Origin: an uncultured Gammaproteobacteria bacterium
Lineage (GTDB): Bacteria > Pseudomonadota > Gammaproteobacteria > Steroidobacterales > XN24
Reading direction: 5' to 3'
DNA: 64,000 nt
Assembly: GCA_947259915.1 (NCBI GenBank)
Contig: CAMYOC010000040.1
Coordinates: 1 to 64,000, forward strand
Shown here: positions 11,829 to 44,928 of the stretch, in pieces
How the letters are laid out: each line of letters opens with the position of its first letter
How positions within the stretch are numbered: the first letter of the stretch is position 1
Notes under the pieces: model-generated
Seen by the model: only the letters and a program-made list of their open reading frames with translations
What the model was told of the DNA's origin: nothing
Database searches by the model: none
Position numbers and translations under genes: made by a program

Positions 11829-11861
11829 TCCCCGGCTGAGGCCCCGGAGACTCTGGCCCGG

Positions 11862-25233: not shown

Positions 25234-25249
25234 TGTGACGGCGTTCACA
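25234..25249. promoter_or_regulatory. CRP-type binding site upstream of the metalloprotease
   Basis: TGTGACGGCGTTCACA fits TGTGA-N6-TCACA exactly. It lies 122 nt upstream of the metalloprotease start on the minus strand, a normal distance for an activator site. The lipoprotein gene at 25310-25804 reads towards it, so only the protease can be its target. Confidence 0.75.
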
Positions 25250-25906: not shown

Positions 25907-28354
<2,448 letters not shown>

Positions 28355-28771
28355 CGTGAGAATCCTGTAGCCGGTCGGCCCGCCTTGCTCATTTGTGTCT
28401 GTCTGTCGATCACATAACCTTTCTTCCAGGCTTCTCCTGGCTTGCCCGTCCCGGGCCATCCTCAGACGCTGGTCATACCCTTGTCTTCGTCCACTGGCCG
28501 AATTTCTTGAGCATGCATTCGCCCGCAGGTTCAAGCATCTACGCCTGATTCGGCCATATGCGTGACTCAGTTCTCATTCTCGAGAGTTGCTCCTTAAAGA
28601 GTGCTGATCGAACTGCCGACTAATGCTATGTTCGGCGGTGAGTTTGAGATTGGTGACAGGTTCGCGCCGGTCGGATCGAGGATCAGTACACAGGCGTTCG
28701 CCGGCTGGCATGGCGAGGGGTAACGGTCCGCGACAACAAACAGCCTTCGTCATCCGGAACCAAGGAACTAC
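28355..28771. other. Divergent promoter region between the hybrid kinase and REC-GGDEF-EAL genes
   Basis: These 417 bases separate two divergently read signalling genes and must hold both promoters. AAGGA for the right-hand gene is at its end. No palindrome, CRP-type site or RNA gene stood out. Confidence 0.5.
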
Positions 28772-30919
28772 ATGGTAGCGCAGGGCCCAACGGATCAGGA
28801 TCAGCCGCAACAGGTGCTCATCGTCGATGACGACGAGACGGCGCGCCTGTTGTTGCGGGAGCTGTTGATCGCTGACGGCTTGACGGTCATAGAGGCCGTG
28901 GACGGGGCCGAGGCGCTGCAGAAGTTCCGCGAGCACCAGCCGGACCTGGTGTTGATGGACGTCGACATGCCGGCCATGGACGGACTGACCGCCTGTGTCG
29001 AGATGCGTGCGCTCGATCCTTCCCCCGGGCTCCCTATCGTCATGGTCTCCGGTCATCAGGATGCGGCCACGATAAACCAGGCTTACGCCAACGGTGTGAC
29101 AGATTTTGTCCTCAAACCGGTCAACCCGGCATTGTTGTCCAACCGGATCCGCGGCCTGCTCGCTCAGGGCGCGGCCGGCGAGCCCACAGACGGTCCTGCA
29201 GACGCGAGCAAACTTCTCGGCGCCATACCCGATCAGCTCTTCTCACTCGAGCGCTGCGGGAAGATTCTGGAGTACAGCGGCCCGACGGGTCCGGTCCGGG
29301 ACAGGATCGAAGCGGCCGGCGATACGCCCACTGTGGAGGCCGTATGGCCTGCTGTGGTAGCCGAATCACTCCTTGGCAACGTGAGACGCACCCTTAAGAC
29401 CCGCAACGAGGCCACCTGGAAGTTCTCTGATGACAGCGACGGCGCCTGCAGGCATTTCGAGGCCCGCTTCCTGGCGCAGGGTCGCAATCGGGTGCTGATG
29501 GTGTTGCGTGATGTCAGCAGCCAGGCAGAGAGCGAGGCGCAGATAAGCCGTCTCGGACTCATCGATGATGTCACCGGTCTTCCCAACCGTCTGCAGTTTC
29601 TGCGCAATCTCGAAAACAGGCTGATCGAGGCACGTTTCCGCTTCCGCTCGATCGCCCTGGTGTTGTTCGACGTGAGAGGTCTGGACCGGGTCCGGGAAGG
29701 TCTCGGGGCCGATGCGGTTGACCGGGTCTTGCAGCAGACCGCGGAGCGCCTGCGCGAGTCGAGTCGAAGCGCGGACGCGGTCGCGCAGAGCACGACAGAT
29801 ACGGGTAGTGAGGCGATCGCGCGTCTCGAGGGCGTGGGTTTTGCCGCGATCCTGGATAATGTGACCGACAGAGAGGCTGCAGCATCATTCAGCGAACGCA
29901 TGCTGGAGAGCCTCAACCAGCCGCTCAGCTTTGGCGAGCACGAGGTTCGCTGCGAGGTGCGCTCCGGTGTAGCAATCTATCCGGAGGAGGCTGGTGACGT
30001 CGAGAGCCTGCTCAAGGCGGCCGAAAAGAAACTTGCCGAGCTGGAACTGCCGCAGGATGCGACCGCCGATGATGGACCGGAACGGCGCGCCGGCAGCTCC
30101 AGGATCCGCAATGATCTGCTGGACGAGGTCAGCTGGGCCTTCGAACAACAGCAATTCGAACTGCATTATCTGCCCAAGGTCGATACCCGCTCGCGGGATA
30201 TCCAGGGTGTGGAAGCACTGTTGCGCTGGCGCCACCCGTTACGCGGGCTGGTGCCGCTGGGCGAGTTCTTCCCGCTGATGCAGGACAGCGGTCTTATCGT
30301 GCCGGTCGGTGACTGGGTCATGCAGACGGCCTGTGACCAGCTCCGCGCATGGGACGACGATGAGCTGCCGCCATTGCTGATGGCGGTGAATTGCTCGGCG
30401 CAACAATTCCTGCTCGGCGACTTCATCGACAGGGTGATCCAGGCACTGGAGACATCAGGCCTGGAGCCCGGACGGATCGAGATCGAATTCGACGAAAACA
30501 TGCTGATGCGCAATCTCGACGAGAGTGCGGAGAAATTGCGCCAGTTGAAGGAACTCGGTATCGGTCTTGCCCTGGATGACTTTGGCACCGGCTTCTCCTC
30601 ATTGCGGCATCTTGCCCGGCTGCCGCTGGATGCACTGAAGATCGACCGCTCCTTCGTTTCCGGGCTACCGCAGTGCGCCGAGTCGGCGGCCGTCTGCGGC
30701 GCCATCATCGATCTCGCACATCGTTTCGGTATGCAGGCGGTGGCGGAGGGGGTCGAGTCGGACGGGCAGGTCGCACAACTCGCCGAACTCGGCTGCGATC
30801 ACATGCAGGGTTTTCTGTTCACCCGCCCGCTACAGGCCGCGGATCTGCCGCGCTTCGTCCGCGCCCATCGCGATACCGATACCGATGCCGTCGGAGACCT
30901 GCGCGCCGCAGCCTCCTGA
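28772..30919 (+). CDS. Response regulator with degenerate GGDEF and intact EAL (c-di-GMP phosphodiesterase)
   Basis: The 715-residue protein has a receiver at about 15-130 (IVDDDET; phospho-Asp in LVLMDVDMPAMDG; Lys in VLKPVN). A PAS-like linker and a GGDEF-like domain follow; the signature is replaced by LEGVGFAAIL, so it is not a cyclase. The EAL domain at about 450-700 has HYLPKVD, GVEALLRWRHP, LALDDFGTGFSSLRHL, LKIDRSFV and AVAEGVES. In the usual E-x-T-E stretch, Asp replaces Thr (EFDENML). It should break down c-di-GMP under control of receiver phosphorylation. It is a paralogue of the protein at 42775, with the same spacer inside the GGDEF domain, and lies directly upstream of the protease operon. 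Confidence 0.92.
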   Translation: MVAQGPTDQDQPQQVLIVDDDETARLLLRELLIADGLTVIEAVDGAEALQKFREHQPDLVLMDVDMPAMDGLTACVEMRALDPSPGLPIVMVSGHQDAATINQAYANGVTDFVLKPVNPALLSNRIRGLLAQGAAGEPTDGPADASKLLGAIPDQLFSLERCGKILEYSGPTGPVRDRIEAAGDTPTVEAVWPAVVAESLLGNVRRTLKTRNEATWKFSDDSDGACRHFEARFLAQGRNRVLMVLRDVSSQAESEAQISRLGLIDDVTGLPNRLQFLRNLENRLIEARFRFRSIALVLFDVRGLDRVREGLGADAVDRVLQQTAERLRESSRSADAVAQSTTDTGSEAIARLEGVGFAAILDNVTDREAAASFSERMLESLNQPLSFGEHEVRCEVRSGVAIYPEEAGDVESLLKAAEKKLAELELPQDATADDGPERRAGSSRIRNDLLDEVSWAFEQQQFELHYLPKVDTRSRDIQGVEALLRWRHPLRGLVPLGEFFPLMQDSGLIVPVGDWVMQTACDQLRAWDDDELPPLLMAVNCSAQQFLLGDFIDRVIQALETSGLEPGRIEIEFDENMLMRNLDESAEKLRQLKELGIGLALDDFGTGFSSLRHLARLPLDALKIDRSFVSGLPQCAESAAVCGAIIDLAHRFGMQAVAEGVESDGQVAQLAELGCDHMQGFLFTRPLQAADLPRFVRAHRDTDTDAVGDLRAAAS

Positions 30920-31031: not shown

Positions 31032-31047
31032 TGTGACCCGGGTCACA
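31032..31047. promoter_or_regulatory. CRP-type binding site upstream of the YIWTDG protease operon
   Basis: TGTGACCCGGGTCACA is a complete 16-bp palindrome and fits TGTGA-N6-TCACA exactly. It starts 109 nt before the ATG of the first protease and is the only strong regulatory motif in the 221-bp gap. CRP, Vfr or Clp-type proteins recognise this sequence. Confidence 0.78.
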
Positions 31048-31140
31048 CATCGCCGCTCCCCCACTGGGGCTCGATCACAGCTCCAAAGCGCCACGGATGA
31101 TCAAATTTGTCTCCAGGATGCGACAGTTTTGGAGATAACG

Positions 31141-32856
31141 ATGTTCAGCCCCTTCACCACATTCCGTGCCGGCATCTGGCTAACGCTGCTGATGCCCCTG
31201 GTGTTACCAGGCTGTGCCACGACCGGGCCTTCAACAGCGTCGGTTGCGCCGACGCAGGAAGCGGCCGCCCGCACTGCGCCCAAGGCCGCGTACATCATCC
31301 AGTACCGGAGTGCGGCGGAAGCCGCTGAAGTCGTACGCGATGCCGGTGGTGAAATCACCCACGAATTGACAGTGATCCGCGCCGTCGGCGCTGAACTGGA
31401 TGAGGCCCAGGTGGCGCAGCTGCGCGAGACCCATAACGGTCTGCGCGTATTCGCTGACCGCGCGGTGTCGCTTGATGCCTATCTTTTCGCGGCGCAGCCG
31501 GACACCGGTGTTCAGCAGCACAAGAACGAATATGTGGATCCGGTCGGTGACGCACCTCATACCATCATCGGCGCGGATCGGCTGCACGATAACTGGATCG
31601 ACGGCTGGGGCGTGGGTGTGGCGGTGATCGATACCGGCGCCCATGCGATGGCGGGCCTCGAGAGCAACAACTGGCGCACGGTGTGGTACTACGACGCATT
31701 CAAGAATACCTTCCTGGCTGATGGCAAATCCAAGGACGGGTCCGGGCACGGCACTCATGTCTCCTCGATCATTGCTGCTGACTATGCCGCTACTCAGCAC
31801 GGTTTTTATGGCGTCGCGCCGAGCGTAGATCTGATCTCGGTCAAAGCATTCAACAAAGACGGTCAGGGCTCCTACCTGGATGTGATCCGCGGTATCGACT
31901 TTGTCGTCAGGTACAGGGAGAAACTCAATATCCGCGTGCTCAATCTGTCGTTGAGCGCCGAGATCCACTCGTTCTATTGGGATGACCCGCTGAATCAGGC
32001 GGTGATGGCTGCCTGGGAGGCGGGCATCGTCGTCGTGGCCTCGGCCGGTAATCGTGGCCCGGATGCAATGACCATCGGTGTGCCCGGGAATGTGCCCTAT
32101 GTGATCACCGTTGGCGCGATGACCGACAACTACACGCCTTATGACCCGACGGACGACTATCTCGCCACATTCTCCTCGACCGGACCCACCTACGAAGGCT
32201 TCGTCAAACCCGAAGTGCTGGCGCCCGGTGGCCATATCGAGGCGATGATGCCGGCGGACGGCCAGATCCAGGCCGAACACGTCGAATACAAGGAAGGACC
32301 CGGATTGTTTGTGATGTCCGGCACTTCCCAGGCTACCGCAGTCGTCAGCGGCACGGTCGCGCTGATGCTGCAGATGGAGCCGAATCTGACGCCTGATCAG
32401 GTCAAATACCGGCTGATGGCGACCGCACGGCCCGCGACTGCCGCAGACGGCTCGCTGGCGTACAGCGTATTCCAGCAGGGCGCGGGCCTGATCGACGCCT
32501 ATGCGGCCGTGCTCGAGTACGACGGCCAGCCGGCGGCGGCCGCTAACCAGGGCATGTCTGTTTCTTATGACCTGGACGGGCTACAGCATTACGGCGGGCG
32601 CGCCAACCAGGATGAGGCCGGCAACTTCTACGTGATGGATCTGGATGGCTACATCTGGACCGATGGTTATGTCTGGACCGACGGGTTTATCTGGACCGAC
32701 GGCTTCATCTGGACCGACGGTTTTATCTGGACCGACGGTTTCATCTGGACCGACAGCTACATCTGGACCGATGGCTTTATCTGGACAGACAGCTACATCT
32801 GGACCGATGGCCTTAGCGAGGCCGCTTCGATCAACCACTGGGTAGAACAGGAATGA
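31141..32856 (+). CDS. S8 (subtilisin-like) lipoprotein protease with nine C-terminal YIWTDG repeats
   Basis: From the ATG at 31141 (GGAG 6 nt upstream; 571 aa) a lipoprotein signal ends in LPGC with Cys25. Residues about 50-115 are an I9-like propeptide (AYIIQYRSAAEAAEVV, GGEITHEL). The catalytic triad is intact: Asp164 (VAVIDTGAH), His203 (SGHGTHVSS) and Ser396 (MSGTSQATAVVSG), with the oxyanion Asn in ASAGNRGP. After a linker (HYGGRANQ) nine hexapeptides YIWTDG/FIWTDG fill 32650-32811. It should be an outer-membrane-anchored protease. Its stop overlaps an ATG of the sensor gene. The catalytic domain is closely related to that of the protease at 36274. Confidence 0.93.
   Translation: MFSPFTTFRAGIWLTLLMPLVLPGCATTGPSTASVAPTQEAAARTAPKAAYIIQYRSAAEAAEVVRDAGGEITHELTVIRAVGAELDEAQVAQLRETHNGLRVFADRAVSLDAYLFAAQPDTGVQQHKNEYVDPVGDAPHTIIGADRLHDNWIDGWGVGVAVIDTGAHAMAGLESNNWRTVWYYDAFKNTFLADGKSKDGSGHGTHVSSIIAADYAATQHGFYGVAPSVDLISVKAFNKDGQGSYLDVIRGIDFVVRYREKLNIRVLNLSLSAEIHSFYWDDPLNQAVMAAWEAGIVVVASAGNRGPDAMTIGVPGNVPYVITVGAMTDNYTPYDPTDDYLATFSSTGPTYEGFVKPEVLAPGGHIEAMMPADGQIQAEHVEYKEGPGLFVMSGTSQATAVVSGTVALMLQMEPNLTPDQVKYRLMATARPATAADGSLAYSVFQQGAGLIDAYAAVLEYDGQPAAAANQGMSVSYDLDGLQHYGGRANQDEAGNFYVMDLDGYIWTDGYVWTDGFIWTDGFIWTDGFIWTDGFIWTDSYIWTDGFIWTDSYIWTDGLSEAASINHWVEQE
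32650..32811 (+). repeat. Nine tandem 18-bp units encoding (Y/F)(I/V)WTD(G/S)
   Basis: Exactly 162 bp and 54 residues: nine units without gaps. Position 1 is Tyr or Phe, position 2 Ile or Val, positions 3-5 always Trp-Thr-Asp and position 6 Gly or Ser. The DNA units are near-identical (ATCTGGACCGACGG). As 18 is divisible by three, unit gain or loss would keep the frame. Confidence 0.95.
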
Positions 32857-32888
32857 GCCGGCCAGAAGTGCGGCAACAGGGAGCAAGA

Positions 32889-35800
32889 ATGACTATGCAA
32901 GTCATCGATTCTATCTACGGGATTACCGGTGTCGCTCGGACGACCGCGGGACGTTGGCCCGGTCTGGCTACGGCGCTCGGTATGCTCGCAACGGCAATGT
33001 TTTTGTTCGGCGCGCCACTGGATCAGGCTCACGGCCAGCAGACCGAAGCCCAGCCCATGCGCTTCGAAGGCTTCGGCCAGGCCGAGGGGCTGTCCCAGAA
33101 CACGGTCCTGAGCATCGTGCAGGACGCCAGCGGCTTTATGTGGTTCGGCACCGAGAACGGTCTGAATCGCTACGATGGGTACACGTTTACCGCGTTCCGT
33201 CGCGAAACCATGAACCCCGGCTCGCTGACCAGTGATTTTGTGTTTGACGTGGCCGAGGGGCCGAATGGCGATCTGTGGATCGCCACCGACGGCGGCGGGC
33301 TGGCGCTGCGCCGCAAGGAGACCGGCAACTTCCGCGTCTATCGTCACGACCCTGCATTGACCGGAAGCCTGGCGAGCAACAACATCCGCGCGGTGAGCAT
33401 GGCTGAGGATGGCGTGCTCTGGGTCGGTCATCAGCGTGCAGGTCTGGATCGTTTCGAAGTCGCCAGCGGCCGCATCACGCATTTCCGTCACAATCCGGCT
33501 GACCCGGCATCACTCAACAGCGACTCCGTATTTGCAGTCCATGTGGACCGCGCCGGCGAGGTCTGGGTCGGCACCGACGCCGGCTTGAACCGGCTGAATC
33601 CGGCCAGCGGCCGGGTGACGCGTTATCAGCACGACCCGTCGATCGCCGGCAGTCTGAGCAACGATCTGGTACGCACGATCGTCGCAGACGAAGCCGGTAC
33701 GCTCTGGATCGGTACCAAGGGCGGTGGTTTGAACCGCTTTGACCCTGAAACCGAGCGCTTCACGGTGTTTCGCAACGATCCTGCTGATCCCCGCAGCCTG
33801 AGCAACGACCGCGTCTGGGCGCTGCTGGAGGACGACAGCGGGCGTTTTTGGGTCGGGACTTCAGCGGGTCTGAATCTCTTCGATCGCGCGACGGGCGACT
33901 TCCAGCGCTATCACCGCGAGACCACCGACGCCGACAGCCTCGGCGACGATCATGTCCGGAGCCTGTTCCAGGACCGCAGCGGCATGCTCTGGGTCGGCAC
34001 GCAGCACGCCGGTGTTTTCAAATGGAATCCGCGCTCCTGGTCCATGGGCCATGTGAAGCCGACTGCGACGAATGACGGGCTCAGCGCCGGTAACGTGATG
34101 GCCTTCGCCGAAAGCACAGACGGGACGCTCTGGGTCGGCACCTTCGGTGGCGGTCTGAATGCCATCGATTCTGCGACCGGCAAAGTACGCCGACTGCAGC
34201 ATGATCCGGCCCTTGCCGAAAGCCTTGGCGATGATCGCGTCATGTCGCTGGCCATCGGCAAGAACGGCCACCTGTGGATCGGCACCATGACCGATGGTTT
34301 GAACCGGCTCGATCCGAATACCGGCAGGATCCTGCGCTATCGCCACGACGCTGAAGACCCGGCCAGCCTTGCGGCCAATGGCATCATGGCGCTGTTCGCG
34401 GACCGCGAGGGCCGGCTCTGGATCGGCACTTTTGGCGCCGGTGTAGACCGCCTCGACAACGACGGTTCCGGTTTTGTGCACTTCCCTCACGACCCCGCCG
34501 ACCCGACCAGCCTGTCCAGCCCCCGTGCGACCAGTTTCGCCCAGGATGCCAGCGGGGCCGTCTGGATCGGTACCGACGGCGGCGGTCTCAATCGCTGGGA
34601 TCCGGTGACCGGCAACTTCGATGTCTTCCGGCACAATCCTCTTGATCAGTCCAGCCTGAGTGCGGACACCGTTTACTCGCTTTACGTTGACGCGGACAAC
34701 CAGGTCTGGGTGGGCACGCGCGGTGGCGGGCTCGACCGGGTGCTGATTTCGCCGCGACACCCCGGTCTGGTGCGATTCAGTAACTACTCCCAGGTTGATG
34801 GACTGTCCAATGATGTGATCTACGGCATCCAGGGCGATGATCTTGGCAATCTGTGGCTGAGCACGAATTTCGGGCTCAACCGGTTCAATCCGACCACCGG
34901 CGAGGTCAAGCGCTTCCATCGTAGCCACGGGCTGCAGGCCGAGGAATTCAATTTCGGCGCCCATTTCCGCAGCCGTGATGGCGAGCTGTTTTTTGGCGGC
35001 GCCAACGGCTTTAACCACTTCTATCCGGGTTCGCTGCCACTCAACGCCACGGCGCCTTCGCTCAAGCTGACGGGCTTTGATGTGTTGAACAAACCGGTGG
35101 CGACCGAGCAGCCTTACCAGCTGCTGGACGCAGTCGAGCTCGGCTATCGGGACGACGTCTTGACCCTCGAATTCGCCGCGCTGGATTTCACTGCGCCGGC
35201 TGAGAACCAGTACCAGTACCTCCTCGAAGGGTTCGATCAGGCCTGGGTCGACGCCGGTAACCGCCGCCGCGTGACCTACACAAACCTGGCTGCCGGCAGT
35301 TACGTGTTCCGCGCCAAGGCCTCCAACAGCGACGGCGTCTGGAGTGAGGACCAACTGAGATTGTCCGTGACCGTGGCACCCTCGCCATGGGAGAGCCCGG
35401 CAGCCTACTTCGCCTACGCGGTCGCCGCACTTTTGCTGGTCCTCTGGATCTGGATGGCACAGCGCCGCCGGATGCTGCGCAAGGAAGCCTATAGCCGTCA
35501 GCTCGAGGCGGAAGTTGATGCCCGCACCCAGGAGCTCGCCGAACGCAATGAGGAATTGCGCTCGGTCAACGGCCAGCTGGCAGAAGCCAGCCTGACAGAC
35601 CCGCTGACGGGCCTGCGCAACCGTCGCTATCTCTATGAAGAGGCGTCCAAGGATGTAGACCTGGTGCGCCGTCGTTACCAGGAATCCACAGCGGCGACGA
35701 GCAAACCGCGGACCACGGATATGGTCTTCCTGATGGTCGACCTCGATCACTTCAAACCGATCAACGACTCCCACGGCCACGCAGCGGGCGACGAAGTGCT

Positions 35801-36257
35801 GTTGCAGGTCCGCGATACCCTGCGCCATGCCGCGCGCAGCTCGGATCTGATCATCCGTTGGGGTGGCGACGAATTCCTGGTGATCGCCAGACATACCGAC
35901 GCTGACGAAGCGGAAGAGCTCGCCGAGCGGATCCGCAGCCGAATCGCCGACCGGATCATGGTGCTGGACGACGGCACCGTGGTGAAGACGACCTGTTCGG
36001 TGGGTTTCGCCTGCTACCCGTTCCTGCGCGAGCAGGCCGGACGGCTGGCCTGGGAGCAGGTCATGGCCGTGGCCGACCGCGCCATGTACATGGCCAAGGA
36101 GAGCCGCAACGCCTGGGTCGGCCTGATCAGCACCCCCGAGACCGAGAACGTCGACAACCTGTTCGAGAGCATCGAGAGCGATCCCGACCTGATGATCGAA
36201 GGCGGCGCTCTCGAGATCCGCAGTTCCGAGCCCCGCCAGATGGCGACCGTAGCCTGA
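32889..36257 (+). CDS. Two-component-type beta-propeller sensor with active GGDEF (diguanylate cyclase)
   Basis: The preferred ATG at 32889 follows AGGGAGC; an ATG at 32853 overlaps the protease stop. The protein has an N-terminal signal anchor and 13 visible Reg_prop repeats of the type LWVGTxxGGLNRxDPxTG at about 60-760 (two seven-bladed propellers). A Y_Y_Y domain follows (FDQAWVDAGNRRRVTYTNLA), then a TM helix (AAYFAYAVAALLLVLWIWMA), a coiled coil and a GGDEF domain. The GGDEF motif is intact at residues 992-996, with an RxxD inhibitory site (RSSD) five residues before it. Most such sensors end in a histidine kinase; this one makes c-di-GMP. The ligand is unknown. It lies between two YIWTDG proteases, 16 bp before the second. 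Confidence 0.93.
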   Translation: MTMQVIDSIYGITGVARTTAGRWPGLATALGMLATAMFLFGAPLDQAHGQQTEAQPMRFEGFGQAEGLSQNTVLSIVQDASGFMWFGTENGLNRYDGYTFTAFRRETMNPGSLTSDFVFDVAEGPNGDLWIATDGGGLALRRKETGNFRVYRHDPALTGSLASNNIRAVSMAEDGVLWVGHQRAGLDRFEVASGRITHFRHNPADPASLNSDSVFAVHVDRAGEVWVGTDAGLNRLNPASGRVTRYQHDPSIAGSLSNDLVRTIVADEAGTLWIGTKGGGLNRFDPETERFTVFRNDPADPRSLSNDRVWALLEDDSGRFWVGTSAGLNLFDRATGDFQRYHRETTDADSLGDDHVRSLFQDRSGMLWVGTQHAGVFKWNPRSWSMGHVKPTATNDGLSAGNVMAFAESTDGTLWVGTFGGGLNAIDSATGKVRRLQHDPALAESLGDDRVMSLAIGKNGHLWIGTMTDGLNRLDPNTGRILRYRHDAEDPASLAANGIMALFADREGRLWIGTFGAGVDRLDNDGSGFVHFPHDPADPTSLSSPRATSFAQDASGAVWIGTDGGGLNRWDPVTGNFDVFRHNPLDQSSLSADTVYSLYVDADNQVWVGTRGGGLDRVLISPRHPGLVRFSNYSQVDGLSNDVIYGIQGDDLGNLWLSTNFGLNRFNPTTGEVKRFHRSHGLQAEEFNFGAHFRSRDGELFFGGANGFNHFYPGSLPLNATAPSLKLTGFDVLNKPVATEQPYQLLDAVELGYRDDVLTLEFAALDFTAPAENQYQYLLEGFDQAWVDAGNRRRVTYTNLAAGSYVFRAKASNSDGVWSEDQLRLSVTVAPSPWESPAAYFAYAVAALLLVLWIWMAQRRRMLRKEAYSRQLEAEVDARTQELAERNEELRSVNGQLAEASLTDPLTGLRNRRYLYEEASKDVDLVRRRYQESTAATSKPRTTDMVFLMVDLDHFKPINDSHGHAAGDEVLLQVRDTLRHAARSSDLIIRWGGDEFLVIARHTDADEAEELAERIRSRIADRIMVLDDGTVVKTTCSVGFACYPFLREQAGRLAWEQVMAVADRAMYMAKESRNAWVGLISTPETENVDNLFESIESDPDLMIEGGALEIRSSEPRQMATVA

Positions 36258-36273
36258 GACTGGGAGAAACAGG

Positions 36274-38028
36274 ATGAAACTCAATAACAGAAATTCGAAG
36301 TTCTCCTCGCTGGTGTTAGGCGCCTTGGCATTGATCGGCCTGTTTCACGTGAACACCATGCCCGGTCAGGAAGCCGCCGGGGAGCGCAGCAGCTACATCG
36401 TTCAGGGCGCCAGCCTGCCGGCCGTGAAGGCGTTGGTCCAGGCGCGGGGCGGCGAGATTACCCATGAACTTGGCGTCATCGAGGCGGTGGCGGCTGAGCT
36501 GACCCCCAGCCAGCTGGCCGCGCTTCGCGACAACGACGCGATCCGCAAGGTTTATGGCAATGGCACGGTCGAGACGGCCGGCAAGCCAAGCGATAAGGGC
36601 AAAGGCGACTCCGGCGGGAGCGACTCCGGATCCGAGGGGACAGGCAATGAAGTGCTGGAAACAAACTTTCCCACGTTGACCAATGCCGACGATGTCCACG
36701 CGCTCGGCATCACCGGCGAGGGCATTGGCATCGCCGTGCTGGACACCGGTCTGTGGAAGCACGAAGGGATTACGCTGGATCCATACGGCAGCGTGCGCCT
36801 TAAGGCGGCCTATAACGCGATCAACGACACAGTGATAAGGAAGCCCCTCAATGGCGGCGACTTGGGTGGTCATGGCACCCACGTGGCGAGCATCGCCGTC
36901 TCCACCCTGGTGACCGACGCCGGGAAGTACAACGGCATCGCGCCCGGCGCACATCTGGTCTCGGTGCAGGCTTTCGGCCCTAACGGCCAGGGCACCTACG
37001 CCGACGTCATTCGCGCCATCGACTGGGTGGTGGCCAACAAGTCGAAGCACCAGATCCGGATCCTCAATCTGTCCTTCAGCGCCGAGCCGCGCTCGCACTA
37101 TTGGGATGACCCGATCAACCAGGCGGTCATGGTGGCTTGGCAGAAGGAAATCTTCGTGGTGGCGGCGGCCGGCAACCGGGGCCCCGGCTCCATGACCATC
37201 GGCGTGCCGGGCAACGTGCCGTACGTAATGACCGTTGGCGCCATGACCGACAGCTTTACGCCGGCCGATGGCGCCGACGACAAGCTGGCCACGTTCTCCT
37301 CCGCCGGACCGACCTACGAAGGCTTCGTCAAGCCCGAGGTGGTGGCGCCGGGCGGCCACATGCTTGGCCTGATGGATAAGTATGATTCCCAGCTCGCGCT
37401 GGACTATCCGGAATTCCATTACGGTGGCAAGTACTTTGAAATGTCCGGCACGTCCCAGGCCACCGCCGTGGTCTCCGGCATCGCCGCCCTGGCCCTGCAG
37501 GCCGAGGCCTGGCGCTCCGTGGACGAACTCAAGTGCAAGATCCTGTCGGCCGCCAAGCCGGCGGTGAACCAGGACGGCAGCCTGGCCTACAGCATCTTCC
37601 AGCAAGGCGCCGGACTGGTGGACGCCTATGAGGCAGTCATGAACCAGACGGTGGACTGCGCCAACCGCGGCCTGCACATCGACAACGATATCGACGGCTA
37701 CCAGCACTTCGGCGGCCGCGCCAACCAGAACCCGGACGGCAGCTACTACCTGATGGGCATGGACGGCTACATCTGGACCGATGGCGGTGTGGGCACCGAA
37801 GGATACATCTGGACGGACGGATACGTCTGGACGGACGGCTACGTCTGGACCGATTCCTATCTCTGGACGGACGGATCGGTCAACGCGAATGGCTACATCT
37901 GGACCGACGGTTATGTCTGGACGGACGGCTACATCTGGACCGACAGCAACGTAAGCATTGGCGGCTACATCTGGACCGATGCGCTGACCGAGATGGCCAC
38001 CATGAGCAGCTGGGTCGATCCCGAGTAA
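36274..38028 (+). CDS. S8 (subtilisin-like) secreted protease with nine spaced YIWTDG repeats
   Basis: The 584-residue protein has a signal-peptide-like start (SSLVLGALALIGLFHV) and an I9-like propeptide (SYIVQGASLPAVKALV, GGEITHEL). A Gly/Ser-rich hinge (KGDSGGSDSGSEG) precedes an intact triad: Asp157 (AVLDTGLW), His200 (GGHGTHVAS) and Ser394 (MSGTSQATAVVSG). The linker HFGGRANQNPDGSYYLMGMD leads into nine YIWTD units. Unlike the first protease, blocks are split by seven-residue spacers (GGVGTEG, GSVNANG, SNVSIGG). There is no lipobox, so it is probably periplasmic or released. It is the third gene of the operon, 16 bp after the sensor and 10 bp before the next protease. Confidence 0.93.
   Translation: MKLNNRNSKFSSLVLGALALIGLFHVNTMPGQEAAGERSSYIVQGASLPAVKALVQARGGEITHELGVIEAVAAELTPSQLAALRDNDAIRKVYGNGTVETAGKPSDKGKGDSGGSDSGSEGTGNEVLETNFPTLTNADDVHALGITGEGIGIAVLDTGLWKHEGITLDPYGSVRLKAAYNAINDTVIRKPLNGGDLGGHGTHVASIAVSTLVTDAGKYNGIAPGAHLVSVQAFGPNGQGTYADVIRAIDWVVANKSKHQIRILNLSFSAEPRSHYWDDPINQAVMVAWQKEIFVVAAAGNRGPGSMTIGVPGNVPYVMTVGAMTDSFTPADGADDKLATFSSAGPTYEGFVKPEVVAPGGHMLGLMDKYDSQLALDYPEFHYGGKYFEMSGTSQATAVVSGIAALALQAEAWRSVDELKCKILSAAKPAVNQDGSLAYSIFQQGAGLVDAYEAVMNQTVDCANRGLHIDNDIDGYQHFGGRANQNPDGSYYLMGMDGYIWTDGGVGTEGYIWTDGYVWTDGYVWTDSYLWTDGSVNANGYIWTDGYVWTDGYIWTDSNVSIGGYIWTDALTEMATMSSWVDPE
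37768..37980 (+). repeat. Nine YIWTD units in blocks separated by seven-residue spacers
   Basis: The 213-bp array has Y(I/V/L)WTD units arranged 1, 4, 3 and 1, separated by GGVGTEG, GSVNANG and SNVSIGG. The spacers end in Gly before Tyr and keep the frame. The pattern shows that the aromatic-Trp-Thr-Asp core, not strict hexad spacing, is conserved. Confidence 0.93.
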
Positions 38029-38038
38029 GAGGTCAGAC

Positions 38039-40666
38039 ATGATTAGACGCAAGACAAAACTCATCGGCATCGGCGCCTGTGTCATGGCGGCTGCCGGTCT
38101 GGCCACGCTCGTGGCGCAATCCTTGCCGGACCGGGGTGCGGCGCCTGCAGCCATTCCGTCCGAAGCCTGGCGCGGGACTGATGCATACCCCGACGCGAAG
38201 CCGGTGCTGTCGACCCGTGATGATCAGGCCTCGAAACCGACGCTGGCAGGCGGCGACCAGGTCGATTCATCCGCTGCGCGCGAAGGCGCGGAACAGCGCT
38301 TCGCACCTGCAGCCAGGACGGCCATCCGAAATTATGCTGCGGCCACTCCGGCCGCCCCTGAGACCGCCGGCAGCGACGCCCGGATCCGCACCGACGCGGC
38401 CGGCAGCGACCGCCCCGGGCGTTACAGTCGACTGAGCGCGAATGCCGCCGCCCTGGCCCGGGCAGGCGGCGAAGACATGGTCGAGGTCGTCGTGGCCTAT
38501 GAGGCTGCACCAGACGCGCAAGAGGCCGAACGCGTCAGCCTGCTTGGCGGCGACCGGCAGCGAGGCTTTGCGAATTTGCGCATGAAGACTTTGCGCGTTC
38601 CCGCCAGTCAGCTCGAGACCCTGAGTCTGGGCGCGGGCGTGAAGTTTGTGGCCACCGACGAGCCGGTTGCGACCGCGTCCGTCTCCGCGCGCGAGACTGC
38701 ACTGCTGCCGCAGCCCGGCTCGCCATACCACTTTGCGGTCGCGCCAAATGTCGGCATTGCGGTGCTGGATTCCGGCGTCGCCCAACACGATGACATGAAT
38801 CTGGTTAAGCAGGTGAATATCATCCCGCCGGCCACGCGGACCGTGAACGAGGGCCGTGCCGAGGGATCGCTGCAGGCGCTTTACATCTTTGACGAAGGCA
38901 ACGGGTCGACCGTGTTTGACCGCGCCAGCGGCGACGACGCGTTGCACCTGGCCATGGAGAATCCTGATCGGGTCGCATGGCAAGACAGCGATGCTAACGT
39001 GCATAGCCCGACGCGGATCTCCAACAGTCAGGATAACAATCGTATCTACCAGGCCTGTACGGCCAGCAACGAGCTGACGGTCGAAGCGTGGATCACCCCG
39101 GGCTACACCGAGCAGGGAGGACCGGCGAGGATCGTGACGCTGTCGAAGGATTCTGGTAACCGCAACTTCACCCTGGGTCAGGATGGCAGCCGTTTCCAGT
39201 TCCGTGTGCGCACCACCAGCAATGGCAACAATGGCACCTATACGATGTTGACCAGCGCCTCTGGTAGCGTGGCGACGTCGACCCAGCACGTGGTCGCAGT
39301 GCGCGACGCAGCCGGCAATGCGTCGCTATACGTCGACGGACAGCTGGTCGACAGCGAGTACATCGGCGGTAATTTTGGCAACTGGAACCCGTACTATGAT
39401 CTGGCGCTGGGCAACGAATTCTCCACTGCCAGCACGACCACCGATCGGGACTGGCGTGGTAATTATCACAGCGTGGCAGTTTATTGCCGGGCCCTGAGCG
39501 CGACTGAGGTGGGCAGCAATTACGCGGCCGGGCATGAGGCGCTCGAGACCGATCGGGACCCCTACGGCCACGGCACACATGTAGCGGGGATCGCCGGCGG
39601 TGACGGTGCCTTGTCTGGTGGCGCGTATGGCGGTTTTGCCCCCGGAGCCAGCGTGTTTTCGCTGCGCGTGATGGACGAACTCGGCCGCGGCTTTACTTCG
39701 GACGTGATCGCCGGTCTGGATTGGGTGCTGAGCCACGCCGAGACCGAGAACATACGCGTCGTCAATATGTCGTTGGGCAAGGCGGTTACGGAAAGCGCCG
39801 CCACCGACCTGCTGGTAATGGCCGTCGAGCAGGTCTGGGATGCGGGCATTGTGGTGGTCGCCTCGGCCGGTAACTACGGCCGCGACGGGTCGATGACGAT
39901 AACCAGCCCCGGAATCTCGCCGAAGGTCATCACCGTCGGCTCGCTCACCGACAAGGGCACTGGCTTCGACTATAGCGACGATTTCGTCTCCACGTTCTCA
40001 TCCACTGGCCCGACCCTGATCGATCATTATCTGAAGCCGGATCTGCTCGCGCCGGGTAACCGACTCGTTGCACCGATGCCGGCTGCGGCGAGGATGAGGG
40101 TTGATCTGCCGGGCCGCGCGCCGGCCTGTGGGAACGGCTGTAGTAACCGCTATCTGGAGATTTCCGGGACCAGCATGGCCGCCGGCGTCGTATCCGGTGC
40201 TGCCGCCCTGATGCTGACCCAGGACCCGGCCCTGACCCCGGCCACGGTCAAAGCCCGACTGATGCGCTCGGCGCGCAAGATCGACGGTGATGCCACGGCA
40301 ACCGGGGCCGGTGTAATTGATGTGGCGGCCGCGCTGGCGGAAACCGGCCACGTCGCTGGCCAGGCCCTGTCGCCGAAGATGGTGCGCTCCGAGGCCGAGG
40401 CGGGAATCCTGATCGAGGACACGGCCCAGCTGTGGGGCGACGCGGCCTGGTCGGCGGGTTACATCTGGACCGATGGTTTTATCTGGACCGACGGGTACGT
40501 ACGGGCTGACGGTTACATCTGGACCGACGGTTACATCTGGACCGACGGTTACATCTGGACCGACGGCTACATCTGGACCGACGGCTATATCTGGACTGAC
40601 GCGGTGCGCGACATGGATCCGCTGTACGGTACCAGCGCACAAAGCAGCGGGCTGAACGATGATTGA
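38039..40666 (+). CDS. S8 protease with a LamG-like domain inserted in the catalytic domain and eight YIWTDG repeats
   Basis: The 875-residue protein has a signal sequence (IGIGACVMAAAGLATLVAQ), a low-complexity Ala/Asp region and a propeptide-like domain (MVEVVVAYEAAPDAQEAERV). The catalytic Asp is 244 (AVLDSGVAQHDD) but the His only comes at 511 (GHGTHVAGI), with Ser712 (SGTSMAAGVVSG). In between, residues about 280-500 form a concanavalin/LamG-like beta-sandwich (LYIFDEGNGSTVFDRASGDD, LTVEAWITPGY, LYVDGQLV). The array at 40460-40600 has eight units, one degenerate (YVRADG). It is the last gene of the operon and a terminator follows. The catalytic core is more distant from the other two. 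Confidence 0.92.
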   Translation: MIRRKTKLIGIGACVMAAAGLATLVAQSLPDRGAAPAAIPSEAWRGTDAYPDAKPVLSTRDDQASKPTLAGGDQVDSSAAREGAEQRFAPAARTAIRNYAAATPAAPETAGSDARIRTDAAGSDRPGRYSRLSANAAALARAGGEDMVEVVVAYEAAPDAQEAERVSLLGGDRQRGFANLRMKTLRVPASQLETLSLGAGVKFVATDEPVATASVSARETALLPQPGSPYHFAVAPNVGIAVLDSGVAQHDDMNLVKQVNIIPPATRTVNEGRAEGSLQALYIFDEGNGSTVFDRASGDDALHLAMENPDRVAWQDSDANVHSPTRISNSQDNNRIYQACTASNELTVEAWITPGYTEQGGPARIVTLSKDSGNRNFTLGQDGSRFQFRVRTTSNGNNGTYTMLTSASGSVATSTQHVVAVRDAAGNASLYVDGQLVDSEYIGGNFGNWNPYYDLALGNEFSTASTTTDRDWRGNYHSVAVYCRALSATEVGSNYAAGHEALETDRDPYGHGTHVAGIAGGDGALSGGAYGGFAPGASVFSLRVMDELGRGFTSDVIAGLDWVLSHAETENIRVVNMSLGKAVTESAATDLLVMAVEQVWDAGIVVVASAGNYGRDGSMTITSPGISPKVITVGSLTDKGTGFDYSDDFVSTFSSTGPTLIDHYLKPDLLAPGNRLVAPMPAAARMRVDLPGRAPACGNGCSNRYLEISGTSMAAGVVSGAAALMLTQDPALTPATVKARLMRSARKIDGDATATGAGVIDVAAALAETGHVAGQALSPKMVRSEAEAGILIEDTAQLWGDAAWSAGYIWTDGFIWTDGYVRADGYIWTDGYIWTDGYIWTDGYIWTDGYIWTDAVRDMDPLYGTSAQSSGLNDD
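40460..40600 (+). repeat. Eight tandem YIWTDG units in the third protease
   Basis: There are 47 residues: YIWTDG, FIWTDG, the degenerate YVRADG, then five YIWTDG units with almost identical DNA (GGTTACATCTGGACCGAC). The homogeneity of the last five suggests recent expansion by slippage or unequal crossing-over. Confidence 0.94.
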
Positions 40667-40809
40667 ACCGAACACGGAGCCGGATCATACGGCCCTCAGT
40701 CGCGGAGTGTTCATCCGCTCCGGCTGATGTTGATCCGCCGCCGAATCTTCCGGACACGGAATCCCGACCAAAATCCGCGCGGCACCGAATCCCGACACAG
40801 ACTTCCACA

Positions 40810-40838
40810 CGACCGCGCAATGCGGTCGTACTTTTTTG
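40810..40838 (+). terminator. Rho-independent terminator of the protease operon
   Basis: Stem CGACCGC/GCGGTCG with loop GCAAT is followed by TACTTTTTTG. It lies about 145 bp after the third protease stop and marks the end of the four-gene operon. Confidence 0.85.
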
Positions 40839-40926: not shown

Positions 40927-40942
40927 TGTGCGCTACGTCACA
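40927..40942. promoter_or_regulatory. Imperfect CRP-type site upstream of the sigma-54 activator
   Basis: TGTGCGCTACGTCACA differs from TGTGA-N6-TCACA by one base. Its left flank (ATTATGTG) is the same as that of the site at 31032. It starts 179 nt before the GTG of the activator gene. One mismatch makes this weaker than the other two sites. Confidence 0.5.
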
Positions 40943-41105: not shown

Positions 41106-42230
41106 GTGACCGCAATGGCGAAGAAAAAAGATGCAACGGTCGCGGCCGCCGAGAGCACCGGCCCGGACGACGGTGACACCGTCGCGAGCGGTCTGGAGAG
41201 TTCATCCGGAAATCCGTCTTGCGACGCCGCGACTCGGTACATGCCGACCGGCGAAACACCATGTATGAGCGCTGTCCGTCGCCTTATCGAACAGGTGGCC
41301 GGGGTCGACACCAACGTATTGATCACCGGCGAATCCGGCACCGGCAAGGAGTGGGCTGCGCGCAGCATCCACCATCTATCGCCGCGCTGCGAGCAACCGT
41401 TCGTCCCGGTCAATTGCGGCGCCATCCCCGCTGAGCTGATGGAGAGTGAGCTGTTCGGACACGAAAAGGGCTCGTTCACCGGCGCTATCGCATCGCGCGC
41501 AGGTCGTTTTGAAATGGCCGAGGGCGGCACGCTGTTTCTCGACGAGATCGGCGATATGAGTCTGCCGATGCAGGTCAAGCTGCTGCGGGTGCTGCAGGAG
41601 CGACAGTACGAGCGTGTCGGCAGCAACAGAAGCCGGCCCTGTGACGTGCGCATTGTGGCCGCGACGCACCGGAACCTGGAGGCGATGATCGCCGACGGCC
41701 GCTTCCGCGCAGACCTCTTTTACCGCCTGAATGTTTTTCCGATCGAGATGCCGGCGCTGAGGGATCGCATCGACGACCTCGGCCTGCTCGCCGCAAATAT
41801 CATGCAGCGGTGCGAGCGCTCCGGGCTCGATCCTGTTGAACTCACGCCGGGCGCGCTGCGTGTGCTGCGCGATAGTCCGTGGCCCGGCAATATCCGTGAG
41901 CTGGCCAACCTGCTGGAGCGGCTGTGCGTGCTCTACCCGGGAGGAACGGTCGATATCGGACAATTACCAGGCCGCTTTACCCGGAACGTGCAGATTCGTG
42001 ACTCGGACCGGCACACGCTGGAGGAGGCGCGGTCAACAGGACCGATGCCCCAGGACTTCGGACTGCCCGGACCCAATATGACGCTCAAGGATTATCTCGC
42101 CAGCATCGAACGGTCGTTGATTCTGCGGGCGCTGAACGAGAGCAACGGGGTCATCGCCGGTGCAGCACGTATTCTCAACGTACGGCGGACAACGCTGGTA
42201 GAGAAAATGAAAAAGTACCGGATCGGCTAG
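41106..42230 (+). CDS. Sigma-54-dependent activator (AAA+ and Fis-type HTH) without receiver domain
   Basis: The 374-residue protein opens with about 50 unstructured polar residues and goes directly into the AAA+ domain: Walker A GESGTGKE, the sigma-54 contact loop EKGSFTGA, Walker [13 protein letters not shown] and the sensor region [14 protein letters not shown] Fis-type HTH ends the protein ([20 protein letters not shown]). No N-terminal receiver, GAF or PAS domain is present, so it may be controlled by another protein or, like FleQ, by c-di-GMP at the AAA+ domain (inference). The GTG at 41106 has AGGAAGGA 7-8 nt upstream; an ATG lies nine bases later. It sits between two c-di-GMP loci. 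Confidence 0.9.
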
Positions 42231-42374: not shown

Positions 42375-42761
42375 TCAGGCCGAGGCGGCGTGGTCGCCGT
42401 CGCCGGGCGGCTCCGATGACTCGATGCGTTCTGCCGCCAACGCAGTCAACGCCCGCTCGTGCTCGGCATGGATTTCCTCGAACAGGTTTGTTTCCTGTGC
42501 CAGGTCGCCCGCGCGGGCCTGTTCTTCCAGCTGTCGGCATAACTCCGACAGACGGCTCGCACCGAGATTCGCTGCGGCCGATTTGAACGTGTGGGCGTGG
42601 CGGCGTGTCTCGTCGATGTCGCCATCCTGCAACGCCCGATGCAACGCCTTGACCAGAGCGTCGGCATTACGACTATAGGTGTCGATAATCCGGGTCAGCA
42701 GATCCGGTTGCCCGGGACGCTGCAAGGCGCGGATGTTGTCCAGTGCGGTTTGATCCAGCAT
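42375..42761 (-). CDS. Stand-alone HPt phosphotransfer protein
   Basis: The 128-residue helical protein carries the HPt signature RRHAHTFKSAAANLGASRLS with phospho-His57. It has no catalytic domain, so it passes phosphate between receivers in a relay. The ATG at 42761 has AGGAG 8 nt upstream; an extended frame to 42821 would overlap the upstream gene without similarity. It follows the REC-GGDEF-EAL gene by 13 bp and is co-transcribed with it. The hybrid kinase at 25907 lacks exactly this domain, so the two may work together (inference). Confidence 0.9.
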   Translation of the reverse strand: MLDQTALDNIRALQRPGQPDLLTRIIDTYSRNADALVKALHRALQDGDIDETRRHAHTFKSAAANLGASRLSELCRQLEEQARAGDLAQETNLFEEIHAEHERALTALAAERIESSEPPGDGDHAASA

Positions 42762-42774
42762 ATCTGACTCCTGA

Positions 42775-44928
42775 CTATCTGAGGCGCCGCGAACCTGTCG
42801 CACCCCGGTCGTTCGCGTCACCGATAATGGTGGCGGCCAGGTTGCTGCGTACGAATTCGCTTATCTGTGCGGCGGGGACCGGGCGACTGAACAGGAATCC
42901 CTGTACCTCATCGCAGCCGATATCGCAGATGGCGGCAAGCTGCTCCCGGGTCTCGACGCCCTCGGCGATAACCTTCAATCCGAGGCTGTGACCCATAGCG
43001 ACCACCGCCGAGCAGATCGCCCTATCGTCGGCATCGATGTTGATGTCTTCGATAAAGGAGCGATCGATCTTCAGCGCATCGACGTTGAGGCGCTTCAGAT
43101 AGCTCAACGAAGAGTATCCGGTACCGAAATCGTCGACCGCCAGCGCCACACCCATCTCCTGGATTTCTCGCAGCGTCTCGTGGATCTGTGCCAGGTCGCG
43201 CAGGAACAGACTCTCGGTAATCTCCAGTTCGAGGCTTGATGCATCGATACCACTGTTGCAGATGGCGCCCCAGATCATGGTGGCCAGATTGCCGAAGGTG
43301 AACAGCTGGCTGGACACGTTGACGGCGATGGGGAAGGGATCCAGACCCGCGGCGACCCATGCGCGTGACTGTTCGCAGGCCTGGGTAACGACCCATTCGC
43401 TGATCGGCGCGATCAGTCCGGTCTCTTCCGCCAGCGGGATAAACCGCGCGGGTGAGATCGGTCCTTCCTCCGGATGGTTCCAACGCAGCAAGGCTTCGAC
43501 GCCGGTAATCCCGCGCCCCTTGAGATTGATCTTCGGCTGATAATGAATTTCCAGATCGCCGTGCTCCACCGCCTTGCGCAGTTTCAGCTCCAGGTCGAGT
43601 CGCTCCATCGACCGAAGGCTCATGGATTCGGAATAGAACCGTTGCGTGTTGCGACCGGCCGTCTTGGCCTCATACATCGCGGTGTCTGCATTTTTCATCA
43701 GTGCCTCGGCATCCGCTCCGTCCTGCGGATAGATGGCGATGCCGATGCTCGGGGTCACCACGAACTCCCGTCCAAGATGGCTGAACGGGCTGCGCAACGC
43801 CTCGTGGACCCGGACCGCGATGCGCTCGGCATCATGCTTGTCGCGGATGCCCCGAGCCAGGATCACGAACTCGTCCCCGCCGACCCGGGCCAGCGTTTGC
43901 GATTGCTGCGATTCATCGGTGGGGGAAACCATGTCCGAGCCACGGATGCATCCGGCCAGCCGCGAGGCCACCGACTTCAACAGGACGTCCCCGGTGCTGT
44001 GGCCGAGGTTGTCGTTGATGCGCTTGAAGAAATCCAGATCGATAAACAGCAGCGCGACCTGACCGCCCTGGGTCTGCGCTTCGCTCAACGCAGAGCGCAG
44101 TGCGCGCAGGAACCGTTGCCGGTTCGGCAGACCAGTCAGCGTATCGAAAAACGCAAGCCGATGGACCTTGGCGGCGGCGGTGACACGCTCGGTGACGTTA
44201 CGGATCAGCGCGAGGACCCGGTTATCCCGATAATTAATCAGACGGACCTCATGAGCGCGTGGCGCGGTCTTCCGTCCGTGCTGGAATTCAAAGGTCTGGA
44301 TCGATCCACCTTCCAGACTCCTGCGGATCTGGGCCTGGAATTCGCGGGCGTGCTCCGGCGCGAGCAGTTCGCTGATCAGCCTGCCCTCGGCGTCGCTGGG
44401 CAGCCACTGCTCCCCCTGGCCCTGATCAAGCAACTGGTCGATCCGGCCGTCGGCGTCGAAGACACAGATGCAGTCCGGGATGGCGCCGAGCAGGGCGCTG
44501 TTCTTCGACTCACTGACCTCCAGCTCCCGCAGGGTCCGCGCCGCCCGCAGGATAAATTGCACGCGTTGTCCGAGGACCGGCCAGTTGATCGGCTTGCTGA
44601 TAAAATCTGTGGCGCCGGCTTCATATGCCGCCTTGATCGAGGCCGAATCGTCATTGCCAGTAACCATCACCACAGGCGTCATGCCGAATTCAGGGAGATC
44701 GCGCAGCCTGCGGCAGGCGGAGATGCCATCCAGCCGGGGCATGTCCACATCCATGAGGACGATATCCGGCTGGTATTGTTCGAACAGGGTGAGTGCGTCC
44801 TCACCGTTGCAGGCCTCGATGACCTCGTGACCGCCTCCTTCCATGGTCTCTCTGAGCATCAGGCGCATGGTCGAATCGTCATCGACGATAAGCACCCGGC
44901 AACGCAGCTCGGTGGCTGCGAGACTCAC
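42775..44928 (-). CDS. Response regulator REC-PAS-GGDEF-EAL, both output motifs intact
   Basis: The 717-residue protein has a receiver (VLIVDDDSTM, Asp in IVLMDVDMPRLDG, Lys in FISKPIN) and a PAS-like domain. GGDEF is intact (LARVGGDEFVIL), with an unusual spacer (SPTDESQQSQT) between RGSD and the motif. EAL is intact (HYQPKINLKGRGI, GVEALLRWNHP, LELEITESLFL, AVDDFGTGYSSLSYL, VIAEGVET). It could make or degrade c-di-GMP. The GTG at 44928 is preferred because GGAGG lies five bases upstream; a GTG at 44961 is also open. It is a paralogue of the protein at 28772, whose GGDEF has decayed. The HPt gene follows. Confidence 0.92.
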   Translation of the reverse strand: MSLAATELRCRVLIVDDDSTMRLMLRETMEGGGHEVIEACNGEDALTLFEQYQPDIVLMDVDMPRLDGISACRRLRDLPEFGMTPVVMVTGNDDSASIKAAYEAGATDFISKPINWPVLGQRVQFILRAARTLRELEVSESKNSALLGAIPDCICVFDADGRIDQLLDQGQGEQWLPSDAEGRLISELLAPEHAREFQAQIRRSLEGGSIQTFEFQHGRKTAPRAHEVRLINYRDNRVLALIRNVTERVTAAAKVHRLAFFDTLTGLPNRQRFLRALRSALSEAQTQGGQVALLFIDLDFFKRINDNLGHSTGDVLLKSVASRLAGCIRGSDMVSPTDESQQSQTLARVGGDEFVILARGIRDKHDAERIAVRVHEALRSPFSHLGREFVVTPSIGIAIYPQDGADAEALMKNADTAMYEAKTAGRNTQRFYSESMSLRSMERLDLELKLRKAVEHGDLEIHYQPKINLKGRGITGVEALLRWNHPEEGPISPARFIPLAEETGLIAPISEWVVTQACEQSRAWVAAGLDPFPIAVNVSSQLFTFGNLATMIWGAICNSGIDASSLELEITESLFLRDLAQIHETLREIQEMGVALAVDDFGTGYSSLSYLKRLNVDALKIDRSFIEDINIDADDRAICSAVVAMGHSLGLKVIAEGVETREQLAAICDIGCDEVQGFLFSRPVPAAQISEFVRSNLAATIIGDANDRGATGSRRLR

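Follow-up and report, generated by a model that had tools for sequence, protein, structure and literature searches.

Subtilases with hexad arrays and a double-propeller sensor form a conserved yet patchy module in which array spelling tends to follow the propeller

Why would a bacterium place three S8 proteases (subtilases), each with an array of tryptophan-centred hexads near its C-terminus, in line with a sensor that joins a double beta-propeller to a GGDEF domain? The question is raised by a locus of four genes, A to D, in a 64,000-nucleotide stretch (the window) of an uncultured gammaproteobacterium of the lineage Steroidobacterales; XN24 (GenBank GCA_947259915.1, contig CAMYOC010000040.1, positions 1 to 64,000, forward strand). 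Across related genomes the arrangement recurs as a real module, conserved yet patchy, of whose existence we are nearly certain, and in this module the array spelling keeps closer to the propeller of the sensor than to the catalytic domain of the protease itself. In the window the four genes run head to tail over 31141-40666, with intergenic gaps of 32, 16 and 10 bp:

31032..31047, CRP-type palindrome TGTGACCCGGGTCACA, a perfect TGTGA-N6-TCACA, 94 bp upstream of the ATG of gene A
31141..32856, plus strand, gene A, S8 protease of 571 aa with 9 [YF][IV]WTD hexads and the C-terminus WVEQE
32650..32811, plus strand, array of gene A, nine hexads of 18 bp each, located by counting
32889..36257, plus strand, gene B, double beta-propeller (Reg_prop), Y_Y_Y and GGDEF with RSSD I-site
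36274..38028, plus strand, gene C, S8 protease of 584 aa with 9 YxWTD hexads with spacers and the C-terminus WVDPE
38039..40666, plus strand, gene D, S8 protease of 875 aa with 7 hexads and the C-terminus LNDD
40809..40829, plus strand, terminator-like stem-loop of 9 pairs, then a T run, downstream of gene D

Coordinates, Pfam matches and motifs bear out the layout given by an earlier, sequence-only reading of this DNA: the gaps, the three array-bearing S8 proteases and the propeller-GGDEF sensor. Peptidase_S8 matches A, C and D with E-values of 2e-45 to 3e-50, and the triad motifs are intact in all three (VIDTG/VLDTG/VLDSG, GHGTHV, GTSQA/GTSMA), as is the oxyanion Asn. The reading frame of A is already open from 31033, and its product has a possible lipobox, LPGC, judged by eye. 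In D, a Laminin_G_3 (LamG) domain (residues 338-491, Pfam) is inserted between the catalytic Asp and His. In the AlphaFold model of protease C, confidence is high for an N-terminal domain at residues 39-101, taken as the prodomain, and for the greater part of the S8 domain, and a fold search matched it to pro-subtilisins, supporting an inhibitory prodomain for C alone; prodomains in A and D were judged by eye. Hexads of the [YF][ILV]WTD type number nine in A, nine in C and seven in D, towards the end of each protein. No Pfam or NCBIfam family was listed over the arrays at E 0.001, and a known repeat family was rejected on that ground. Open frames with proline/aspartate repeats (AVGPD...) lie on the opposite strand across from the arrays, for example at 32581-32886 on the minus strand; these are unlikely to be genes and probably just shadow the arrays. 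Gene B matches Reg_prop, Y_Y_Y and GGDEF in Pfam, has by eye one hydrophobic segment at its N-terminus and another between Y_Y_Y and GGDEF, and its periplasmic part (residues 54-832) scores 336 bits against the solved double-propeller domain 4a2l. Since the GGDEF motif and the RSSD I-site are both intact, B is a predicted active diguanylate cyclase. Spacing, the basis here, suggests that the four genes are co-transcribed. Of the rho-independent terminator proposed earlier, the hairpin and its T run are present, but as a class terminator-like sites do not exceed chance in the window (9 found vs 7.7 expected).

Is the grouping peculiar to this genome? When 147 genomes of the order were searched with protease C and with the propeller of B, an S8 relative lay within 5 kb of 22 of the 32 strong sensors (at least 380 bits), on the same strand in all 22, against 0.31 expected by chance; mere chance neighbours are thereby rejected. 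None of the eight weaker propeller matches (below 380 bits) was linked to a protease. In another family, that of G056 (107 genomes), linkage was seen for 38 of 51 sensors, again always on the same strand, and co-occurrence was tight (both parts in 34 genomes, sensor only in 2, protease only in 2, neither in 69; Fisher p 4e-23). The order and family sets have 11 sensor-bearing genomes in common and are therefore not independent; for some of the sensors without a link the contig is short or ends close by, and the link of G497:C22 depends on a 56-residue match. For the order set, 53 of 54 protease rows were used and second sensor pieces were merged or left out; for the family set, 77 of 81 rows were used (four short pieces dropped), some of them fragments. 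A scan with protease C alone gave 26 loci, 12 with a sensor and several of the rest short. Among the sensor-bearing ones are a genome of Alteromonas salexigens and metagenome-assembled genomes (MAGs) that bear the labels Acidobacteria/Acidobacteriota and Glaciecola, the Acidobacteriota being represented by loci L028-L030 only, all MAGs. The 26 named relatives include many gammaproteobacterial MAGs, nine of them labelled Woeseiaceae or Woeseia. Outside the order the module looks rare: in a class survey of 293 genomes, with no more than three to four candidates scored per genome, sensor relatives (E 1e-100) occurred in four and protease relatives (E 1e-20) in five, both in G000 and G010, and one further genome, G212, has an adjacent sensor/protease pair.

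The propeller is not confined to one kind of output. It is joined in this group to four: GGDEF; GGDEF-EAL (L055, L066); a hybrid histidine kinase with receiver (L035, L040, L054, L063, L094, L095, with Hpt in all except L035); and a sigma-54 activator. The earlier proposal that the unit sets cyclic di-GMP (c-di-GMP) was thus too narrow. In the last type, propeller and Y_Y_Y are fused to PAS-GAF-sigma-54 AAA, and HTH_8 is listed in four of the five; these fusions would be membrane-bound enhancer-binding proteins:

L058, 8693-13156
L064, 5843-10363
L091, 3287-7753
L092, 2136-6608
L093, 4449-8895

Modules of the GGDEF type usually include one or two GGDEF-EAL proteins, and a same-strand EAL gene lies within 7 kb of 35 of 38 GGDEF-type sensors (942-1168 aa) vs 8 of 20 long sensors. 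The window has such a gene:

28772..30919, plus strand, response regulator (RR)-GGDEF-EAL protein of 715 aa (Pfam and motifs), just upstream of the CRP-type site

This protein is without a GGDEF motif and has the EAL, DDFG, KID and EGVE motifs; it is the predicted c-di-GMP phosphodiesterase partner of B.

What, then, links a given protease to a given sensor? Nearly all complete proteases of the group carry a Trp-centred array, mostly of hexads, whose spelling differs from protein to protein (YLWTDG, YMWTNG, NLWADG, YTWSQG, LLWNDG, TSWNEG); in the window's own genome, 8 of 10 S8 genes carry one and the other two do not. Spelling sorts by sensor type: W[TSA][DN] was found in 23 of 31 GGDEF-linked proteases vs 0 of 9 linked to long sensors, a rule that was chosen after this first set had been seen (four fragments or overlapping frames dropped) and then fixed. 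L066 was counted as non-GGDEF in these tallies, its GGDEF-EAL output having been seen later with Pfam. A prediction by sensor type, taken from length or the lack of a GGDEF match, was written down before unseen loci were fetched. It fitted 10 of 11 GGDEF-linked loci, two of the ten lying exactly at the 0.5 threshold, and all five long-sensor-linked loci, or 15 of 16 (Fisher p 0.0014); the genomes are related and some loci closely so, and the cases are therefore not fully independent. The 11 were counted from 18 places, six others being contigs already known, as judged by their length (five fit, L111 did not), and one, G442, unlinked. The prediction had named all long sensors hybrid kinases; Pfam later placed sigma-54 activators and GGDEF-EAL proteins among them, so that it holds for sensor length or lack of a GGDEF match and not for that name. 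All five linked sensors of the sigma-54 type stand beside WND arrays.

The same tendency is seen quantitatively. Across 57 linked pairs, a partial Mantel test gave r 0.57 between array and propeller given the catalytic domain (0 of 2000 permutations), and r 0.00 between array and catalytic domain given the propeller (p 0.42). The set is without the duplicate loci L043, L069, L102-L104, L109, L111, L112 and L127, four fragments, sensors with a propeller under 500 aa and S8 proteases with fewer than four hexads. With RpoB also controlled, in the 33 pairs from 21 genomes that have an rpoB locus (22 of 30 genomes matched, 21 used), the propeller kept a partial r of 0.47, or 0.46 without same-sensor pairs (0 of 2000 permutations each); loci were assigned to genomes by hand in this and the same-genome test below. 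In nine genomes where linked modules of the GGDEF type and of the long type occur together (G000, G021, G046, G083, G132, G463, G498, G504, G505; the GGDEF-linked protease frame of G132 is incomplete), the commonest pair of residues after W differs between the two in nine of nine. The window's own genome has two sensors and two codes: WTD, borne by A, C, D, the proteases of C51 and C9 and one gene of C42, and W[SG]Q, borne by C2, next to a kinase-type sensor, and by the C42 gene adjacent to the first. Two codes each also occur among the scattered proteases of G022 and G008, both of which have two strong sensors, but in these genomes code coincides with protease lineage.

Proteases and sensors are further tied by their promoters. 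The perfect CRP-type palindrome reported earlier before the operon stands at 31032-31047, and two further CRP-type sites lie in the window:

25234..25249, CRP-type site, the second perfect one, 122 bp upstream of a reprolysin-like metallopeptidase gene (23040-25112, minus strand)
40927..40942, CRP-type site with one mismatch, upstream of a sigma-54 activator gene

In the window alone, three sites with at most one mismatch were found vs 1.28 expected, little above chance, as 7 of 100 shuffles reach three; the whole genome has 15 perfect sites vs 1 for a backwards control. Five of these 15 stand directly before array-bearing S8 genes or the operon that holds them (C40, C2, C9 and, twice, C42), and a sixth array-protease unit (C51) has a 9/10 site. 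The pattern extends to the gammaproteobacterial MAGs of the protease C scan taken together with the genomes of the order (left out were L001-L008, L075-L090, L043, L069 and, of 69 S8 frames, 3 with less than 200 bp of preceding sequence): 28 of 56 S8 genes have a perfect site and 38 of 56 one matching at least 9/10, against none of either in a reversed control. Other genes of the same loci have 6 of 405 and 14 of 405, and sensor genes 5 of 39 and 17 of 39 (control 0 and 1). The consensus palindrome is thus above background before putative CRP/Vfr regulon members in the related gammaproteobacterial set. The genome's own CRP homologue scores 250 bits to Vfr (7few) vs 197 bits to the catabolite-activation-like protein 3iwz, which we take to be Clp, and appears to keep the RS pair of the cyclic AMP pocket; the genome also has two class III cyclase matches. 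On these three grounds a Clp-type, c-di-GMP-binding CRP was rejected for this genome; in relatives it is possible. Same-strand adjacency, co-occurrence and common promoter sites across genomes all favour the unit of proteases and sensor proposed by the sequence-only reading; the GGDEF-EAL partners, the CRP-type sites before proteases in relatives, the four outputs, the tracking of array and propeller and the fixed C-termini described below go beyond it.

How might such a unit work? A CRP/Vfr-like regulator would switch the module on when good carbon is short. The S8 proteases would be exported, mature by removal of the prodomain and digest external protein. The array would serve as a tag by which the cognate propeller recognises the protease, whether bound, released or clipped, and occupancy of the propeller would set the sensor's output, in this case c-di-GMP made by B and removed by its EAL partner. 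Several modules per genome, with different array codes and outputs, would be kept apart by code; the ligand could be the whole protease, the released array or fragments, and the response could be of either sign. On sequence evidence, the proposal that the window operon is one copy of the conserved protease-sensor module, its array a tag read by the cognate propeller with occupancy setting output, stands evenly balanced, and that the propeller reads the array-bearing protease is likewise about even. More tentative, and in our view somewhat doubtful, is full self-recognition, in which hexapeptide "barcodes" on a cell's own exported proteases would be read each by its own propeller, a cell would run several barcode/sensor pairs in parallel, and c-di-GMP, phosphorelay or sigma-54 outputs would be served by a common sensory head.

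Several observations weigh against the proposed module and its array reading. Within the GGDEF-only subset covariation is weak, with a propeller partial r of just 0.17, and the GGDEF-linked exceptions to W[TSA][DN] are L022, L030 (three), L032 (one), L046, L049, L051 and, later, L107. With RpoB controlled, small partial effects remain for the catalytic domain (0.14, p 0.001; when same-sensor pairs are dropped, 0.07, p 0.049), and RpoB itself has one of 0.17 (p 0.045). A tree-based independent-pairs test gave three pairs on supported branches and none opposed (p 0.25-0.5), too few pairs. The array of C has a predicted local distance difference test score near 25 in the AlphaFold model, that is, uninformative. 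No CRP-type site stands before the 10 S8 frames (two of them overlapping frames of L028) of L028-L032 and L034, from Acidobacteria, Alteromonas, Glaciecola and one Pseudomonadales MAG. Counted from the protease side, among the matches listed (the best candidates scored per genome), the order set has 53 rows, 25 linked and 28 away from a sensor, and the family set 77, of which 41 are linked and 36 lie away. The prospect that these proteases are usually found alone, which the earlier reading had named as refuting it, is thus partly realised for genes and hardly for genomes, since those with a protease yet without a sensor are few (1 of 21 in the order, 2 of 36 in the family). In the window's own family, six sampled genomes (G011, G025, G049, G059, G067, G074) have neither sensor nor protease, which makes the module patchy; as the window's genome has eight array proteases, gain by transfer and loss in relatives are the alternatives. 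Covariation and the fit of the unseen loci thus favour the earlier idea that the propeller reads the arrays and the GGDEF-only subset does not, leaving that interpretation partly supported; product sensing and co-inheritance are possible alternatives.

Could the propeller instead sense what the proteases release? The locus might be a proteolytic counterpart of a polysaccharide-utilisation locus (PUL), in which the propeller senses substrate-derived peptides or glycopeptides, or sugar, the linked proteases are degradative and the array binds substrate or the cell surface without being read by the sensor. The nearest solved sensors, 4a2l, 3v9f and 3ott, are of the hybrid two-component system (HTCS) kind, which adjoin degradative genes and, in the parts of PMC3243724 that concern them, sit beside polysaccharide loci in Bacteroides and respond to oligosaccharides; this too counts against array reading. 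Several relatives are assigned to Woeseiales, and S8 peptidases are reported from all Woeseiales genomes examined in the relevant portion of PMC7082342. Such a PUL-like locus would account for adjacency and co-regulation; it leaves unexplained why array tracks propeller more than catalytic domain, and why arrays are more alike than expected between protease lineages of one genome that are less than 40% identical. Array similarity in such same-genome pairs is 0.54 (10 pairs) vs 0.37 for different-genome pairs of comparable identity (417 pairs), and the same-genome excess has a permutation p of 0.0035 over all same-genome pairs under 70% identity. We hold the PUL-like explanation to be possible and rather unlikely.

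A periplasmic Reg_prop double propeller with Y_Y_Y, encoded beside degradative enzymes, is common to the module and to HTCS. An HTCS has hybrid kinase and response output in one chain, whereas B ends in GGDEF and some relatives have a hybrid kinase-RR, often with Hpt. The partners here are array-bearing S8 proteases, and none of the four operon genes has a SusC/D or glycosidase match in Pfam, although D has the lectin-like LamG; those neighbours of the operon that were scanned encode signalling proteins, one metallopeptidase and one metallo-hydrolase, with neither SusC/D nor carbohydrate-active enzymes among them. In its logic the module comes nearest to HTCS/PUL sensors, but its enzymes are proteases whose repeat codes match the sensor.

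A second alternative to array reading makes the array an export, anchoring or matrix-assembly tag for an unseen partner, the match to the propeller being a by-product of gene conversion and co-inheritance with the operon. The arrays do look homogenised within each protein, the C-termini are fixed in a tag-like way (W[VM]xxE closes 58 of the 70 proteases of A/C type, and NDD falls within the final 16 residues in 17 of 34 D-type ones, the latter counted by eye), and the weak covariation inside the GGDEF subset fits as well. Yet the adjacent S8 genes C42:13919 and C42:15805, about 155 bp apart, carry unlike codes and genes far from each other have the same one, an argument against simple local gene conversion, and third-position identity among repeats is only 0.64-0.70, so that conversion was not very recent. 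We regard this alternative as improbable.

Known systems resemble parts of the module. In Xanthomonas oryzae, GdpX2 and GdpX3 have the same named sensor domains on c-di-GMP proteins (Reg_prop-Y_Y_Y-GGDEF); compared by description, the text that deals with them gives their sensory function as unknown and mentions no linked array protease (PMC6637768). Tk-SP (3afg) and pro-subtilisin E (3whi) share prodomain and S8 fold with the model of C, from which the C-terminal hexad array and fixed tail, and in D the LamG insert between Asp and His, set the present proteases apart. CRP/Vfr regulons share the TGTGA-N6-TCACA sites and the Vfr-like regulator; no regulon combining array proteases with propeller sensors was found in the literature, none of the searches being aimed at CRP or Vfr. 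In full-text literature of partial coverage, where a description elsewhere is possible, YIWTDG was not found, nor were the combinations of Reg_prop, GGDEF and subtilase, of tryptophan-rich repeat and subtilase, or of regulator propeller, diguanylate cyclase and serine protease; one paper is listed for propeller, diguanylate cyclase and subtilisin-like together, and two each for Reg_prop with Y_Y_Y or peptidase S8 and for Reg_prop with GGDEF. On the subjects sought in it, PMC12175321 offers no more than MEROPS methods.

To our knowledge, most Reg_prop/Y_Y_Y sensors outside Bacteroides have no known ligand, as one paper says for Xanthomonas, and a covarying partner motif offers a concrete, synthesisable ligand candidate. 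If array reading holds, bacteria would sense their own secreted proteases, and thereby indirectly outside protein food, with orthogonal peptide tags. As 9 of the 26 named relatives of protease C are labelled Woeseiaceae or Woeseia, the module may bear on protein degradation in sediment; these groups are reported, in the accessible parts of the sources, as frequent in marine sediment and as encoding many peptidases.

The operon lies in a dense signalling island, with a hybrid kinase on one side and RR-PAS-GGDEF-EAL and Hpt proteins on the other; neighbouring genes are:

23040-25112, minus strand, reprolysin-like M12 metallopeptidase with DUF11 domains, behind the second perfect CRP-type site
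25907-28534, minus strand, CHASE8-HAMP hybrid kinase, on the upstream side of the operon
41106..42230, plus strand, NtrC-type sigma-54 activator without receiver, with the one-mismatch CRP-type site upstream
42375-44961, minus strand, an RR-PAS-GGDEF-EAL protein and an Hpt protein, on the downstream side of the operon

The metallopeptidase is possibly a further protease of the same regulon, and the 41106-42230 activator a possible regulon neighbour; in some relatives a sigma-54 activator is also fused to the propeller itself. Elsewhere, at L018, the gene directly 3' of the array protease (11812-12498) has a product that seems to resemble transposases associated with repetitive extragenic palindromes (REP).

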